Positions 18,866-46,322 of a DNA stretch of 64,000 nucleotides are shown one piece after another. Origin of the DNA: Candidatus Gastranaerophilales bacterium (GTDB lineage Bacteria > Cyanobacteriota > Vampirovibrionia > Gastranaerophilales > Gastranaerophilaceae); the NCBI GenBank assembly GCA_944323625.1, contig CALUTD010000010.1, positions 1 through 64,000 of the forward strand, in the 5' to 3' direction. A program made the position numbers and the translations under genes. The notes beneath the pieces are model-generated. The model was given only the letters and a program-made list of their open reading frames with translations, was not told the origin of the DNA and did not search any database. How positions within the stretch are numbered: the first letter of the stretch is position 1; every line of letters begins with the position of its first letter.

Positions 18866-19048
18866 ATTATCAGGTTTTTAATTTTTCTTAAAAATTTCTA
18901 GAATTAAAGAAAAAATAAATGTGCATCTTTACAATCCTAAAAATTTAAATGTACAGGTAAAAGATTCATTTATTTTTGGTAATTAATCTTAGTGCTGTTA
19001 AAATGTCCGAACAATTTATTTGGCTAATCTATCAAAATGACAACCTAG

Positions 19049-19213
19049 AAAAGCCCTATATGAATATGATTTTGTTACCTGTGAATGCTCCACAGGTGGG
19101 TAAGCGCCTTAACAAATCCGTTTCCTGCTTCAAGGCAGGTCTACTGCATTGTTATAGAGTCCTCTTTCCCTATTAATCAAGATGTAGGAACAAAATAAAT
19201 ACCCATATAGAGC
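19049..19213 (-). ncRNA. ssrS: Structured small RNA, probable 6S RNA
   Basis: About 165 nt on the minus strand with a 6S-like architecture. The ends GCTCTATATGGGTAT and ATATTCATATAGGGC pair over about 15 bp, and a second block TTTTGTT/AACAAAA follows after a small internal loop. A large central bubble comes next, then an apical arm (TAACAA/TTGTTA, capped by CCTGC-CTTGAA-GCAGG). A small hairpin CCTGTG...CACAGG sits on the 3' side of the bubble. A TATAAT lies 6 bases before the start and TTTT follows the closing stem. The structure is strongly supported. The name 6S rests on architecture and length, not on a database match. Confidence 0.6.
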
Positions 19214-19219
19214 ATTTAT

Positions 19220-25620: not shown

Positions 25621-26391
25621 TTATTGAACTTTTTTAGTTTTTAAGTATTCATTCCATTTGGTTTGAAATTTAGATTTATTTATTTGCATAAGATTTTTAG
25701 TTTTTTTTGTAAATGATTTACTTGTAAAATGTATAACTTCGGATTTAGATTGATAAATTATTTTGAAGCCCATCATTTTAAATCTTAAACACAAGTCTGT
25801 TTCTTCATAATATCCGGGAGCATATATTTCATCAAATCCGCCTGATTTATCCCATAAAAATTTTTTTATCATAAGACTTGCCCCGCAGCAATAATCAACC
25901 TCTTTTAAAATGTTATATTCATAAAACATTGGATTATTTAAATGACCTATGGAATAAACATTTCCGTCCTCAAAAATAATTGAGCCCGCGCCTTGAAGCT
26001 TTCCATTCGGATATACAAGTTTTGACCCTGCTGCCGCGCAGTTATCGTATTTATCAAGTATGTTTTTTAGTTCTAAAATGGCGTTTTTTAGTACAATTGT
26101 GTCATTATTTAATAAATATAAGTATTTTCCTTTAGCCTCTTTTGCAGCTTTATTGCAATTTCTAAGAAACCCTAAATTACTTTCATTTCTGATTATTTTT
26201 ACATTTTTTGCAAATTGTTCCAAATTTTTTGTTTCATCGGTTGAGCAATCATCAATAATTATAATTTCATAATTTACATCTTGTGTATTTTGTTTTATTG
26301 AATTTAAACATTGCATTGTATATTTAAATTGATTATAAACAGGTATAATTATTGATACATCTATTTTCTCAATCGGGGGGGGGTAAAACAC
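25621..26391 (-). CDS. Glycosyltransferase family 2 domain, downstream half of a G-tract-split gene
   Basis: A GT2 domain with VSIIIPVYNQFKYTMQCL, IIDDCSTDET, LNNDTIV (DxD-like), GGFDE and YYEETDLCLR, which adds sugars from nucleotide donors. It begins inside or just before a C9 tract (G9 on the plus strand). The only nearby start is GTG at 26391, with no clear Shine-Dalgarno. One more C, or two fewer, joins it in frame to the preceding glycosyltransferase and gives a protein of about 588 residues. I read it as the second module of one phase-variable gene, which could also be translated separately at a low level. Confidence 0.8.
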   Translation of the reverse strand: MFYPPPIEKIDVSIIIPVYNQFKYTMQCLNSIKQNTQDVNYEIIIIDDCSTDETKNLEQFAKNVKIIRNESNLGFLRNCNKAAKEAKGKYLYLLNNDTIVLKNAILELKNILDKYDNCAAAGSKLVYPNGKLQGAGSIIFEDGNVYSIGHLNNPMFYEYNILKEVDYCCGASLMIKKFLWDKSGGFDEIYAPGYYEETDLCLRFKMMGFKIIYQSKSEVIHFTSKSFTKKTKNLMQINKSKFQTKWNEYLKTKKVQ

Positions 26392-27386
26392 AATGGTTTT
26401 TCTTTATTTATTTTTGCTTCTTTTTTATATTTTATGTAATTTTTAATTATATCTTTTAACTTACCTTTTCTTTTTACTTTTATTTTTATTCCGAAAATTG
26501 TATAAATATTTCTATCTTTAGTTTTGACCTTTGAATAGATAACGGAAATTATTTTTACTGTATATTTTAAAATTTCTGCGAATAAAGGGTTTATTGATTT
26601 TGCAATATCTAGCCATTTTTCATTTTTATCATTATTGTATTCTTTACAAATTCTTTTAAGTTTACTAAAGGTGCTCATATTATATTTATTCATTATACTT
26701 AACGAATATTTGAGTTTTATTTCCTGAGTTTTTTTATATATCGTTTCATATTTTTGTGCCGTCAGACTCTGTGAATTATTTCTGTATTTATATAAATTTT
26801 TATCAGAGTATGCTATATTACCTATTAATGCAATACGGCACCAGTATTCATAATCTTCGGCACAAAACATTTCTATATTATAACTGCCTGTTTTTTGCGC
26901 AATTTCTCTTCTGTAAATAAAACATGCCCCGATATTACACTGCCATGCCAGTTGTTCCGGAAATCTAAACGGCAATCTGTCTTTTAGAGTATATTCAAAA
27001 TCACCGTTTTCATTTATATAATCAAAAGAAAAAGATGCTAAATCAATATTGGGGTTACCTTCCAGGTATTTTACCATTTCTTCAAGTGCATTTAACTTAT
27101 AAATATTATCATCAGACGTCCATGTATAATATTCACCATTTGCGATTGAAAAACCTTTGTTTAAACTTGCAGGTAATTTTAAGTTTTTTTCGTTTGAAAT
27201 AATTTTAATTCTTGAATCAATTTTGGAATAATCCGTAATTATTTTTAAGGTGTTATCCTTTGAACAATCGTTAACTATTATTAGCTCCCAATTTTTATAA
27301 GTTTGGTTTATAACACTTTCAATCGACTCTTTTATAAACTTTTCGCCATTAAAGGTCGGAAGTACTATAGAAACAAGTTTAGCCAT
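26361..27386 (-). CDS. Glycosyltransferase family 2, upstream half of a G-tract-split gene
   Basis: A 341-residue GT2 protein: MAKLVSIVLPTFNGEKFI, IIVNDCSKDNT, TWTSDDN (donor-metal site), ACFIYRREIA and AEDYEYWCRI. The C-terminal NIYTIFGIKIKVKRKGK is often seen at the end of surface-glycan glycosyltransferases. In this sequence the frame crosses C9 and stops 4 codons later (…TPPRLRK). With 10 or 7 Cs it would run on as TPPPIEKIDVSIII into the next domain. The start at 27386 (ATG, GAGAGG upstream) is preferred to an alternative at 27437. Confidence 0.83.
   Translation of the reverse strand: MAKLVSIVLPTFNGEKFIKESIESVINQTYKNWELIIVNDCSKDNTLKIITDYSKIDSRIKIISNEKNLKLPASLNKGFSIANGEYYTWTSDDNIYKLNALEEMVKYLEGNPNIDLASFSFDYINENGDFEYTLKDRLPFRFPEQLAWQCNIGACFIYRREIAQKTGSYNIEMFCAEDYEYWCRIALIGNIAYSDKNLYKYRNNSQSLTAQKYETIYKKTQEIKLKYSLSIMNKYNMSTFSKLKRICKEYNNDKNEKWLDIAKSINPLFAEILKYTVKIISVIYSKVKTKDRNIYTIFGIKIKVKRKGKLKDIIKNYIKYKKEAKINKEKPLCFTPPRLRK
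26375..26383. repeat. G9 homopolymer inside glycosyltransferase gene
   Basis: Nine consecutive G on the plus strand (C9 in the coding strand) at the junction of two glycosyltransferase frames that overlap by 31 bases. Such tracts slip during replication and switch genes on and off in other bacteria. Confidence 0.95.
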
Positions 27387-27420
27387 ATTTTTTTCTTTTG
27401 CCTCTCTTCCGCCAGTAATT

Positions 27421-28248
27421 TTAGATTTTAACAACAACTAATATCAGGTTAAGGAAAAAAGAAATTATAAATGCTAAGAGCAACAAATAATATAACTTTT
27501 TGTATTGCTTTAATTTTTTTTCCGTTTGACCGTAAACTTTTTTTACAAAAGTGCTAGATTTTAAATATAAATCTAAATGATGTTTGAAAATAATTGAATA
27601 TAAAAAATTGATTTTATTTGCCGCTAAATCACTTCTTGAATTTTTATTATATTTTCTGTAAAAAAGTAAAACTTCGTCAATTTTATACACATCAAAACCC
27701 GCTTCTATAAATGACAGCCACAAATCCCAATCTTCCCAGCCGTCTTTCATATATTCTTTATAACCGCCGATTTTTTCAAAATCACTTTTTCTGAACATTG
27801 CACTTGCAAAAATGCAATTGCTATATAATATTTTCTCACGGGAAAATTCAGCTAATTTCCATTCTTTATTTTTTGTACCGAAAATCCTGGCGCGGCTGTA
27901 AACTATTCCTATATTAGGATTTTCTTCCAATATTTTTACCGCCTTTTCAACATAAGACGGTGCAATTTTGTCATCAGCATCTAAAGGGAGTATATATTCT
28001 GTCGATGCCATTTGTATTGCCTTATTTCTTGCATAAACTACACCGTGGTTTTCTTTTTCATTAATAAATACTATATCAGGATATTTTTCACATAGTGAAT
28101 GTATTACATCTTCGCTGTTATCAGTTGAACCGTCATTAATAATAACTATTTCCACATTTTTATATGTTTGATTAACGGCAGATTCAACCGCTTCTTTAAT
28201 CCACTCACCCTGATTAAAACAGGGAATAACAATTGAAACTTTTTTCAT
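27421..28248 (-). CDS. Glycosyltransferase family 2 with C-terminal membrane helix
   Basis: A 275-residue GT2: VSIVIPCFNQGEWIKEAVES, IINDGSTDNSED, LPLDADDKI (DxDD metal site) and GWEDWDLWLSF. One hydrophobic segment at about 252-273 anchors it to the inner membrane. It lies 34 bases upstream of the next glycosyltransferase and is the first gene of this surface-glycan cluster. No polymerase or flippase is nearby, so the glycan is unknown. Confidence 0.9.
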   Translation of the reverse strand: MKKVSIVIPCFNQGEWIKEAVESAVNQTYKNVEIVIINDGSTDNSEDVIHSLCEKYPDIVFINEKENHGVVYARNKAIQMASTEYILPLDADDKIAPSYVEKAVKILEENPNIGIVYSRARIFGTKNKEWKLAEFSREKILYSNCIFASAMFRKSDFEKIGGYKEYMKDGWEDWDLWLSFIEAGFDVYKIDEVLLFYRKYNKNSRSDLAANKINFLYSIIFKHHLDLYLKSSTFVKKVYGQTEKKLKQYKKLYYLLLLAFIISFFLNLILVVVKI

Positions 28249-28470: not shown

Positions 28471-28490
28471 GTTGTGGTAGAAACCACAAC
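28471..28490. repeat. Perfect small hairpin in a gene-free stretch
   Basis: GTTGTGGT-AGAA-ACCACAAC forms an 8-bp perfect stem with a 4-base loop. The surrounding 28249-28530 holds no gene I can support. Confidence 0.4.
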
Positions 28491-28530
28491 CTACATTTGA
28501 AACTAATCTAAATAAAAAATAAAAATTTAA

Positions 28531-29005
28531 AGTCCATTGCGTAGGACAGTTAACCTCTTAGAGAGGAAATAACAAGGTGAGCACTGTTTGACGAATTTTC
28601 CGTAGGCTGTAGCGAAGCGGAAATCCAGCCCCGTATAACGGGGTAAGTGAAAGCCGAAATGAGGACAGCCGAAGGCGAACGAATGACAGGCTTGAGCGCG
28701 AAGGATTTTCAAGAGAGCGGAATGCCGAAGAGGTGAAAGGCAGGTGAAGCGTTTTTGAGTAGGGCGCCGTGGCACAAAGTGCCCCAGCCCGAATATGTGA
28801 GGACAAAAGTTTGCGGCAGCGATAGCGAAGCAAACACTTGTCCGAGAGGAAGCAAAAACAAGACAGCAGCAAAAAATCGTAAGATTTTTACGAAATGGAA
28901 CAGATTGCCTGAACCGAGAGGAAAATTTAAGACAGTGTCTGTTAAGACACGAGTTTGCGAACCTTTGCCGAACTTTAGAGGTAATCTGTCCGAAGCTTTA
29001 GGACT
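28531..29005. ncRNA. GC-rich repeated element, candidate large structured RNA
   Basis: About 475 bp that is clearly richer in G and C than its surroundings and has no credible gene. Its ends form an imperfect inverted repeat: AGTCC...GGACAG...ACCTCT at the left and its counterpart at the right, with A-rich sequence outside. Inside are many strong hairpins: GGACAA-GTTTGC/GCAAAC-TTGTCC near 28802-28843, CCCCG/CGGGG near 28629-28642, GGCAC/GTGCC near 28771-28783 and GTGTCT/AGACAC near 28937-28952. A second, internally deleted copy lies at 46018-46149 in the opposite orientation. The transcribed strand is not known. Confidence 0.55.
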
Positions 29006-29110
29006 GTAATTTTTATTTTTTATTTTTTTTGTTTATAAATATTGAAAATATCGAGCGGAAAATTTTATTTTTTTTATTTATTAAATTAAAAATGGTAAAA
29101 TTCTGAACCG

Positions 29111-29186
29111 GCAGAGCCGGCTTCTAACCGGCTTAAATCATTTTTAACATTACCCAATTTATTTTCCTGCAGAGCCGGCTTCTAAC
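29111..29186. repeat. Two direct copies of an 18-bp GC-rich unit
   Basis: GCAGAGCCGGCTTCTAAC occurs at 29111-29128 and 29169-29186, 58 bases apart, each able to form a small CCGGC/GCCGG hairpin with its flanks. This lies in the gene-free region between the glycosyltransferases and minE. Confidence 0.7.
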
Positions 29187-29379
29187 TAGATTAAATTGTA
29201 ATTCTCTATTGGTAAGATTCTGAACAAGTCAAAATCTACGCAATAAATTGCTTGATTTTTAGACTTTTCAGAATGACAGGAAAATGATTTTTAATGTTAC
29301 GTAAATTCAATTTTTGTTACCGAGTTACATAACACATACAATGATGACATAATAAGATTAGCTTATATTAATAGAACAA

Positions 29380-29400
29380 ACCACCGGCTAAGCCGGTGGT
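29380..29400 (-). terminator. Palindromic hairpin after minE
   Basis: A perfect palindrome with 10-base arms ACCACCGGCT and AGCCGGTGGT around one base, 6 bases past the minE stop. The T run after it on the minus strand is weak, so it may stabilise the mRNA end rather than terminate strongly. Confidence 0.55.
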
Positions 29401-29406
29401 CATGAT

Positions 29407-29868
29407 TTATTCTTTTTCTTCTGTTTCTTCTTCAATAACTTCAGCGTCGATTATTTCTTCTTCTTCAATTTCTTCTTCTATAATCTCTTCACCGTCAGAT
29501 TCATTATTTTCTGCTGCTTCATCAGAATCTGAAACTTTTTCTTCTTCCTCTTGAAGCTTCTTTCTTAATTCTTCAAGTTCTTCTTCAGTTTTAGCTCTTA
29601 CAATAGGAATATTAAGCATTAAAGCAACCGCATCACCTTCATTTTTTAATCCGATTTCAAGCTCTTCTTTATCAATTACAACATACTTAGAAAATACATC
29701 AATTAACTCTTCACGCATCTTATTCATAATTAACGGGTCAAGTTTTGTTCTGTCGTGCATTAATATTACTTGCAGCCTGTTTGCGGCACATTCTCCGGTA
29801 TTTCCTGATTTATCCGCCTGAAAAAACTCCATTATTTTATTATATATTTCAGAAATTAATGTTTTCAT
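29407..29868 (-). CDS. minE: Cell division topological specificity factor MinE, with long acidic tail
   Basis: MinE stimulates MinD ATPase and drives Min oscillation, which keeps the Z-ring at midcell. The N-terminal ~95 residues match the family: ANRLQVILMHDR is the MinD-contact helix/strand region, and MREELIDVFSKYVVID and LKNEGDAVALMLNIPI form the dimer domain. At 153 residues it is about 60 longer than usual. The extra tail (about 95-153) is mostly Glu and Asp. The gene starts at the base after minD ends, so the two are co-translated. Confidence 0.93.
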   Translation of the reverse strand: MKTLISEIYNKIMEFFQADKSGNTGECAANRLQVILMHDRTKLDPLIMNKMREELIDVFSKYVVIDKEELEIGLKNEGDAVALMLNIPIVRAKTEEELEELRKKLQEEEEKVSDSDEAAENNESDGEEIIEEEIEEEEIIDAEVIEEETEEKE

Positions 29869-32871: not shown

Positions 32872-33640
32872 TTATAATTTATACGGATAGTCTTCTTTAA
32901 ATTCCCACCCATCCATCTCTACTAAAGCTGTACAAGAAGAACTATAACCTTGTCTACAACTATTTAAAAAGTTACTTCTTGATATATCATTTCCACCGGC
33001 CCCGGGTTGAAATAATATTGTATTCCAATCCCATGTATTAAATCGAGGTACAGTTTGAGCAAAAGCAGGATCACCATCATCATTAGATAAAATATAAAAT
33101 GAGAATATATCTTTTCCCACCTGATTAGGTTTTCTTTCTCCGTTTACATCAAACACTATGCCATCAATACATTCATCTACAAAGAACAATGAGCCATCAT
33201 TCAAATAAACCGCTGCAACATTTTCCCAATACGGTTTGTTAATTGCCTGAATTGAGTTATAATAACTTTCATTTTCTCCTAATTCTTCTATTTTTAAATA
33301 GTTTATATGTTTTAAAATATAGTTATCTAAATATTGTTTATGTTGTTCAAGTCCGCCGCATACAGACCTGCCTTCCCATTCATAACTTGGTATCCCCCAT
33401 TCGGTTTCTGAAAGTTTTATAGCATTTGTCATTACAGAATAAAACTTTTTTAATTTTGAAGCAGTTTCAGTTTTTCTATGATTTGCCATTATCATAGGCA
33501 CTGTTATTGCCGCAATAATTCCTATAACAACAAGTGTTATTAATACTTCTGCAAGAGTAAATGATAGCTTTTTAACAAAAATATTGTTAAACTTTGACTC
33601 TGTTCTACCCCCCCCCGTTGCTGTTAATTGATTTATTCAT
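32872..33640 (-). CDS. Pilin-like (type IV/II pseudopilin) protein, out of frame at a G9 tract
   Basis: The start ATG at 33640 has a strong Shine-Dalgarno (AAGGAG), but MNKSINSNGGG runs into TAG after nine G. With 8 or 11 G the frame continues ...KKLSFTLAEVLITLVVIGIIAAITVPMIMAN, the classic pilin helix, and then through the whole open frame to 32872 (about 255 residues). That frame has KLKKFYSVMTNAIKLSETEWG and ends DGWEFKEDYPYKL. The residue before the Phe is Ser, not the Gly usual for prepilin peptidase. As sequenced the gene is OFF; a protein restarted at an internal Met would lack the helix. Confidence 0.85.
33608..33616. repeat. C9/G9 homopolymer in pilin leader
   Basis: Nine C on the plus strand (G9 in the coding strand) directly after codon 8 of the pilin gene. 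Its length sets whether the FTLAEV helix and the body are in frame. Confidence 0.95.
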
Positions 33641-33664
33641 AGTTATTCTCCTTTTTTGATTAAT

Positions 33665-45880: not shown

Positions 45881-46322
45881 TATGTTAAGTAATTAGTTGA
45901 AAAAACATGAGAACATTTAAAACTAATAAAAAAAATAAATTAAAAAATAAAATTTCCCGCTCGATATTTTTTATTCAATATATTTTTAAATTTGAAAAAA
46001 TATAAAATAAAAATTCCAGTCCTAGTGCTTCAGACAGATTACCTCTAAAGTTCGGTAAAGGTTCGCAAACTCGTGTCTTAACAGACACTCAGACAGTGCT
46101 CACCTTGCTGTTCCCTCACTAAGAGGTTAACTGTCCTACGCAATGGACTTTAAATTTTTATTTTATATAAATTAAAAAATAGGTTAATCTTTGTCAAAAT
46201 AAAGTAGAACTAAACTATAAATCCGCCTCTGAGGGAAATTTTATTTTTTATTTATTTTGTTTATAATATATATTTTAAAAAATATTAGAAAGACAATTTT
46301 TTTCAACTAATTACTTAACATA
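45881..46322. mobile_element. MITE with 25-bp inverted ends and TA target site
   Basis: The left end TATGTTAAGTAATTAGTTGA plus five A (45881-45905) is matched exactly by its reverse complement at 46298-46322. If TA is the duplicated target, the element is 45883-46320 with 23-bp perfect inverted repeats. TA duplication is typical of IS630/Tc1-mariner elements. No transposase gene fits inside, so it is non-autonomous. An inner pair, AAAAAATAAAATTTCCC near 45941 and its complement near 46233, nests within. The core at 46018-46149 is a deleted copy of the element at 28531. It fills the gap between the AsmA-like and PPTase genes; 45773-45880 is featureless. Confidence 0.75.
46018..46149. repeat. 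Short, internally deleted copy of the GC-rich element
   Basis: Read on the minus strand this 132-bp core matches both ends of 28531-29005: AGTCCATTGCGTAGGACAG, AACCTCTTAG and CAAGGTGAGCACTGT, then GTGTCTGTTAAGACACGAG and ACCTTTACCGAAC, ending at AGGACT. About 343 bp of the middle is missing; the junction falls at a shared CACTGT/CAGTGT sequence. Similarity continues beyond the core to CGATATTTT / AAAATATCG and an AAATTTTATTTTTT stretch. Confidence 0.85.

Follow-up and report, generated by a model that had tools for sequence, protein, structure and literature searches.

The GC-rich island at positions 28,531 to 29,005 of the 64,000-nt stretch of Candidatus Gastranaerophilales DNA analysed here (the window) is real, but it consists of two unrelated structured repeat families, nested within each other, instead of one RNA. 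The feature probably consists of nested palindromic repeats that are mobile but non-autonomous, of the same kind as REP, ERIC and BOX elements, with RNA-like folds that are unusually conserved. An interrupted copy of a first repeat, element A, houses a unit of a second, family B, which in turn contains two further units of its own family (Table 1).

The initial annotation had described a gene-free, GC-rich island amid AT-rich flanks, with stable hairpins and paired ends, and this description held up. The GC content by window composition peaked at 0.56 (28600-28799) against 0.23-0.34 in the flanks, no gene overlapped the island (its ORFs, of 82-104 aa and present on either strand, are due to chance), and its predicted fold was better than those of 100 out of 100 shuffled sequences (z -4.7 for the plus strand and -3.5 for the minus strand). 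The ends pair through an inverted repeat (28495-28558 / 28977-29040), and the two-part 12-bp stem that had been singled out is present as GGACAA..TTTGC / GCAAA..TTGTCC. The reported lack of a match to known RNA classes was also confirmed, as Rfam 15 cmscan gave none for the island with the window at gathering score, with the region at E-values as high as 10 and with 16 related loci; the scan to E 10 returned noise only, which discarded ROOL, GOLLD, OLE, HEARO and group I/II introns. A decayed coding transposon was rejected as well, the region being without a coding ORF or transposase remnant, and matches to PF01797 lay elsewhere.

Table 1. Positions of the repeats, their parts and the flanking genes in the window.
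Feature	Position	Strand	Remarks
Glycosyltransferase gene	27421-28248	minus	Flanking gene; name read from sequence
Short REP-like hairpin GTAGGTTGTGGTTTCTACCACAAC	28471-28494	minus	Left flank; read from sequence
Left half of A	28511-28591	plus	AT-rich arm AAAGTCCATTGCG, stems 2-4, ..GAGCACTGTTTGA
Unit X (family B)	28592-28934	plus	343 nt including nested inserts; GC-rich
Unit Y (family B), inside X	28617-28716	plus	GC[GGAAATCC..GGATTTTC]AAGAGA
Unit Z (family B), inside X	28749-28865	plus	GC[GTTTTTG..CAAAAAC]AAGACA
Two-part 12-bp hairpin of the initial annotation	28801-28843	plus	Inner hairpin of Z
Right half of A	28935-29033	plus	Apical hairpin 28935-28950; conserved GAGTT 28951-28955
minE	29407-29868	minus	Flanking gene; name read from sequence
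Intact uninserted A	45957-46168	minus	Inverted repeats; model R1 match 46004-46162, 149.8 bits, E 1.7e-29

A search of the 2.0-Mb genome with the island gave 89 partial matches and 1 full-length match, and the partial ones fell into two groups with breakpoints at 28591 and 28934; the GC-rich inside was also found separately, in pieces, at dozens of other sites. These breakpoints divide A into two halves that abut in intact copies of the same genome. The left half, which is matched by the covariance model R1, ends with the last base of the conserved core CACTGTYTGA (28591), while the right half additionally comprises the closing strands AGAGGT.., CTGTCC.. and GGACT, followed by a T-rich arm. 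At C15:28625, C10:46004 (this window) and C1:143550 the outer parts of A adjoin, with no middle between them; thus, the second copy, which had been taken for a deleted one, is the intact form of A, and the copy in the island is the interrupted one. The initial view that the sequence is repeated and mobile was supported.

The interruption is unit X, with its outer stem at 28593-28601 / 28920-28928 and its foot AAGACA at 28929-28934, inserted at the base of the apical hairpin of A. With the caret marking a junction, the empty site of intact A reads CTGTCTGA^GTGTCTG and the filled site of the island CTGTTTGA^C[..]AAGACA^GTGTCTG. Insert-free X was seen elsewhere, for example at locus L041, and host copies with and without Z were found at locus L037. 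Unit Y was matched by the covariance model R2 (28618-28713, E 6e-22). Folded alone, X, Y and Z were each more stable than nearly all shuffled sequences (Y, -32.9 kcal/mol, z -3.6; Z, -38.5 kcal/mol, z -3.5), and the stem of the inner hairpin of Z has compensated variants in other copies (GGACAA/TTGTCC, GGGCAA/TTGCCC). As read from the letters, the short hairpin in the left flank appears to be an ordinary repeat of a type distinct from A and B, comparable to the GTAG hairpins flanking RAYT-like genes. Further repeat families, often nested, were noticed at loci L024-L056 and in the window at 29108-29196 and 29380-29400 (CCGGCAGAGCCGGCTTCTAAC.., GTCATCCTGAG..CTCAGGATCTTACC, TGTCCGAGCAAAAAGTTACGATA.. 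and short hairpins of the GTAG type).

Stems covary in both repeat families, in keeping with the structured nature claimed initially. Element A is a rod hairpin of about 150-180 nt with conserved internal loops, bounded by AAAGTCCATTGCG../..GGAC or CCGACC../..GGTCGG. In an alignment of 22 sequences, with copies read from 17 of 39 congeners, RNAalifold gave 27 pairs, of which 21 showed two-sided changes; 95.0% of the positions concerned were paired, and the covariation score was 0.465, against 0.189 for shuffled and at most 0.093 for slid alignments. Among the unpaired positions, those of TGTYTGA and GAGTT, which surround the apical stem, are invariant, and the internal loops are GA-rich. A is a dispersed palindromic repeat in which the fold, and not the sequence, is conserved. 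This genome (G000) contains 10 good copies according to R1, several of them uninserted like that at 45957-46168 and whole or nearly so, and its relatives from 0 to 22. Of 146 genomes scanned across the phylum, 32 contained A, and these belong to 7 genera of a single family; an order-level scan with R1 gave weak matches also in one genome of another family (G036), and in the named collection a pattern from the core of the repeat matched only 'Candidatus Gastranaerophilales' genomes from rabbit gut.

The copies of A behave as dispersed units. Genome G091 holds thirteen of them, with sharp ends and unrelated flanks, and since this form of A had no match in the phage or plasmid collections, an origin from either was discarded. 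The G091 copies (L244-L259) carry an extra 3' hairpin, GAGCTTCTTTGCGG[TACTTTCTTG..CAAGAAAGTA]CC, the sequence of which, we take it, recalls repeats from other bacterial phyla. Inverted pairs, recognised as adjacent R1 matches on opposite strands, were found for example at G182:C2, G170:C1 and G091:C2, and in G014 such a pair is itself repeated as a unit. A lies in divergent, convergent and tandem intergenic gaps, and its orientation with respect to neighbouring genes shows no strand bias (17 against 16), which is easier to reconcile with a DNA repeat scattered through the genome than with a gene for a dedicated non-coding RNA. Some copies occupy orthologous positions, near aroA and near htrA, so not all of them are recent. 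The low-complexity AT arms of A hide the ends of the element, where a target-site duplication would show.

Units X, Y and Z share the plan GC[G-stem...stem'-C]AAGA(CA/A/G), carry GNRA-type loops and have outer stems that are variable but compensated (GGATTTTCC/GGAAAATCC, GTTTTTGC/GCAAAAAC, GAAATTCC/GGAATTTC). A strict regular expression for the outer stem recovered about 7 true B units in 400 kb of this genome, too few for statistics, and covariance models were therefore used; the E-values of R1 and R2 are rough owing to a short calibration. In the alignment of one B subtype (A3), two-sided changes affected 18 of the 26 pairs (score 0.390, against 0.167 shuffled and at most 0.110 slid). For 81 distinct model matches from many genera the figures were 23 of 26 pairs and 0.595 (0.187 shuffled, at most 0.132 slid), in an alignment which was fitted to the model and hence leans towards its pairs. 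R2 identified 42 B units in this genome and matches in 47 of the 78 genomes and 28 of the 41 genera of the family; in the phylum scan B was present in 48 of 146 genomes, all of the same family.

Most B units lie within other repeats, so that unoccupied copies of the hosts were available for comparison. At the host GTGGATGA^CACGGCG the empty and the filled forms both exist in this genome, without duplication. Exact gains without duplication were likewise read at TTTGGGA^GAGGG (longer form CTTTGGGA^GAGGG), GAACTT^GTTTCAG, CCTGAGGA^GCGAAGC and, within A, CTGTYTGA^GTGTCTG, the sequence gained at the five hosts being GC[..]AAGA(CA) or C[..]AAGACA. At the CGTCATTGCG host one A is absent beside the insert, i.e. 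the insertion is one base off. Most of these hosts are palindromes, so that B tends to lie in hairpins, those of other B units included. These paired sites show that B inserts precisely, without target-site duplication and mostly into other palindromic repeats.

A second preference concerns stop codons. In a gene-blind, model-based sample, made of the best-scoring matches from a subset of genomes and judged by simple ORF calls (minimum open frame, 60 codons), a stop codon of the same strand preceded the start of the unit by at most 4 nt, mostly by exactly 1 nt, for 11 of 84 B units in the relatives (13%) and 3 of 32 in this genome; the antisense control gave 0 and random positions about 1%. 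The 13% also ruled out that B is always located at stop codons. Some loci of the relatives had been picked via rplE and form a biased sample, which the statistics on 84 and 32 units avoid. In the spc operon B units follow rplX and rpsN. A comparison of 30 congeners showed inserts at both of these junctions that vary between species and are often a different hairpin, while none occurs at the tight junctions rplN-rplX and rplE-rpsN. As B begins with GC, its insertion converts TA^N into TAG and the stop survives; hence, the position of B at stops may reflect survivor bias, function, or both. Separately, conserved segments (L077-L106) located before rplE (GTATGGGcATTCCG..GGAATGCATTCTACGAAAGGA) and before rpsH (CTTTTCTATACTGCCGAATAAATTTCAGTAAGTAG) look like unrecognised ribosomal-protein leaders.

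The genome encodes two RAYT-like Y1 transposases, L161 (G000:C5:6352-6714) and L165 (G000:C21:23566-23916), both flanked by their own short GTAG hairpins and not by A or B. These genes and their palindromes are a classical REP/RAYT system in this order, and because they carry other repeats, A and B were ruled out as REPs mobilised by RAYTs. No transposase with ends matching A or B was found, nor any autonomous transposon sharing their ends among the copies read in this genome and its relatives, in draft assemblies that break at A and B repeats. A literature search on these repeats in Gastranaerophilales or Melainabacteria retrieved nothing relevant.

The closest known kinds are the REP/REPIN/BIME, ERIC/RUP/BOX and IS200/IS605-derived elements. 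A and B resemble the first group as dispersed intergenic palindromes with genome-specific subfamilies, inverted pairs and tandem clusters, A showing such pairs and clusters in intergenic space; as in that group, the hairpin is likely to be recognised, and it often abuts or provides the stop of an adjacent ORF. REPINs consist of inverted pairs and are linked to RAYTs (PMC3116915), GTAG REPs often supply the TAG stop of neighbouring ORFs (PMC3733652), and the stop codon of adjacent genes can be encoded within BOX repeats (PMC3049150). A and B differ from REPs in the size of their units (95-180 nt, not 20-40), in having several conserved internal loops, in a foot without the GTAG/CGTC tag (GC[..]AAGA in B) and in not lying beside the RAYT genes of this genome. 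With ERIC, RUP, NEMIS, BOX and Nezha they share a non-coding nature, a length of about 100-200 nt, terminal inverted repeats, a strong fold and nesting, the latter known from split BOX, RUP and SPRITE features in which one repeat is inserted in another (PMC3049150). In contrast to these elements, B lacks a target-site duplication, and what preserves the structure of A and B from genus to genus is compensatory change, not near-identity of sequence. IS200/IS605 elements insert without target duplication and have hairpin ends. B has both properties; however, A and B have no Y1 transposase with matching ends, and their left and right ends pair in one outer stem. The island shares with ROOL, GOLLD, OLE and HEARO a GC-rich structured sequence in an AT-rich genome, but it has no Rfam 15 match and is a composite of mobile pieces.

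On the reading that we favour, that of nested mobile palindromes, A would have dispersed first; unit X would then have entered the base of its apical hairpin, with Y and Z entering X before or after that event. Each B unit is a self-closed hairpin domain added precisely and without target-site duplication, usually into a hairpin-forming repeat or at a stop codon that is still one after the insertion (TA^GC..). Movement as folded single-stranded DNA has been proposed for IS200/IS605-like and REP/RAYT elements. The exact, duplication-free insertion, together with the covariation of the stems, suggests the same moving form for B, which an enzyme supplied in trans might recognise and move; selection for the fold would then maintain stem pairing despite sequence drift. 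Within the transcribed 3' end of a gene B would place a strong RNA hairpin right behind the stop codon, and this could exert REP-like effects on mRNA stability or translation.

The CTGTYTGA/GAGTT motifs and GA-rich loops of A and the GNRA-type loops of B argue against this explanation, as they exceed the needs of a DNA hairpin and look RNA-like; the covariation of the stems does not separate an RNA from a DNA hairpin. The failure to find a transposase with matching ends, the GTAG hairpins beside the RAYT-like genes, the orthologous positions of some A copies and the one-base offset at the CGTCATTGCG host also weigh against it. It is conceivable, though we lean against it, that B represents a new class of minimal mobile elements, a self-closed, covarying and RNA-like but gene-less hairpin of about 60-120 nt which inserts exactly and without duplication into hairpins, itself included, perhaps via RNA or single-stranded DNA, and that A, with its conserved internal-loop motifs, represents a second such class.

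A proposal that we consider rather improbable holds that A, perhaps together with B, acts as a non-coding RNA that has been amplified in copy number, with stems and loops selected for RNA function. The strong covariation, the conserved unpaired motifs, the GNRA-type loops of B and the presence of a B unit or another hairpin right behind the rpsN stop in many congeners are consistent with it, but the variable number of A copies, their dispersal among unrelated flanks in gaps of every kind and their indifference to gene orientation point the other way, as do the location of most B units inside other repeats and the negative Rfam scans. We give still less credence to B as an mRNA 3'-end or intercistronic control element, a barrier to 3' exonucleases or a modulator of translation at the stop codon, kept as useful whether mobile or not. 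In favour of this are the exact placement of B, in several species, 1-2 nt behind same-strand stops of the groEL and rplL genes and of genes for ribosomal proteins, with no antisense case at such a spacing, and the parallels in TAG-supplying REPs (PMC3733652) and stop-encoding BOX repeats (PMC3049150); nevertheless, no more than roughly one eighth of the B units are at stops, the orthologous junctions of sister species often lack B, and the TAG generated by its GC start, with survivor bias, can explain the position. Finally, the single new large RNA of about 475 nt, of a ROOL/GOLLD-like class, proposed in the initial annotation on the GC island and its stable fold is refuted by the uninserted copies of A and the stand-alone X, Y and Z units, its parts being separately distributed, its empty sites showing stepwise insertion and no full-length copy having been found in congeners beside the one in this genome.

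A and B are among the clearest cases, at the sequence level, of selection for a fold in dispersed repeats of bacteria: compensatory changes have maintained their stems in many genera in spite of the loss of sequence, and the nested filled and empty sites make exact insertion boundaries readable without experiments. The mover, if found, would reveal the way in which palindromes without genes spread and the reason for their accumulation at the stop codons of essential operons; the gathering of palindromes at stop codons is a long-open question for REP elements. They are also a warning to RNA-discovery scans that GC islands with covariation in AT-rich genomes can stem from mobile hairpins.

Elsewhere in the window, a 6S RNA is encoded on the minus strand at 19047-19218 (Rfam RF00013, 56.9 bits). 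Runs of nine G (or C) occur at 26345-26390 and 33601-33646; the first lies in the overlap of two glycosyltransferase ORFs, 25621-26391 and 26361-27437, that are in different frames, and a tract of altered length could join the two or split them apart, in the manner of phase variation.
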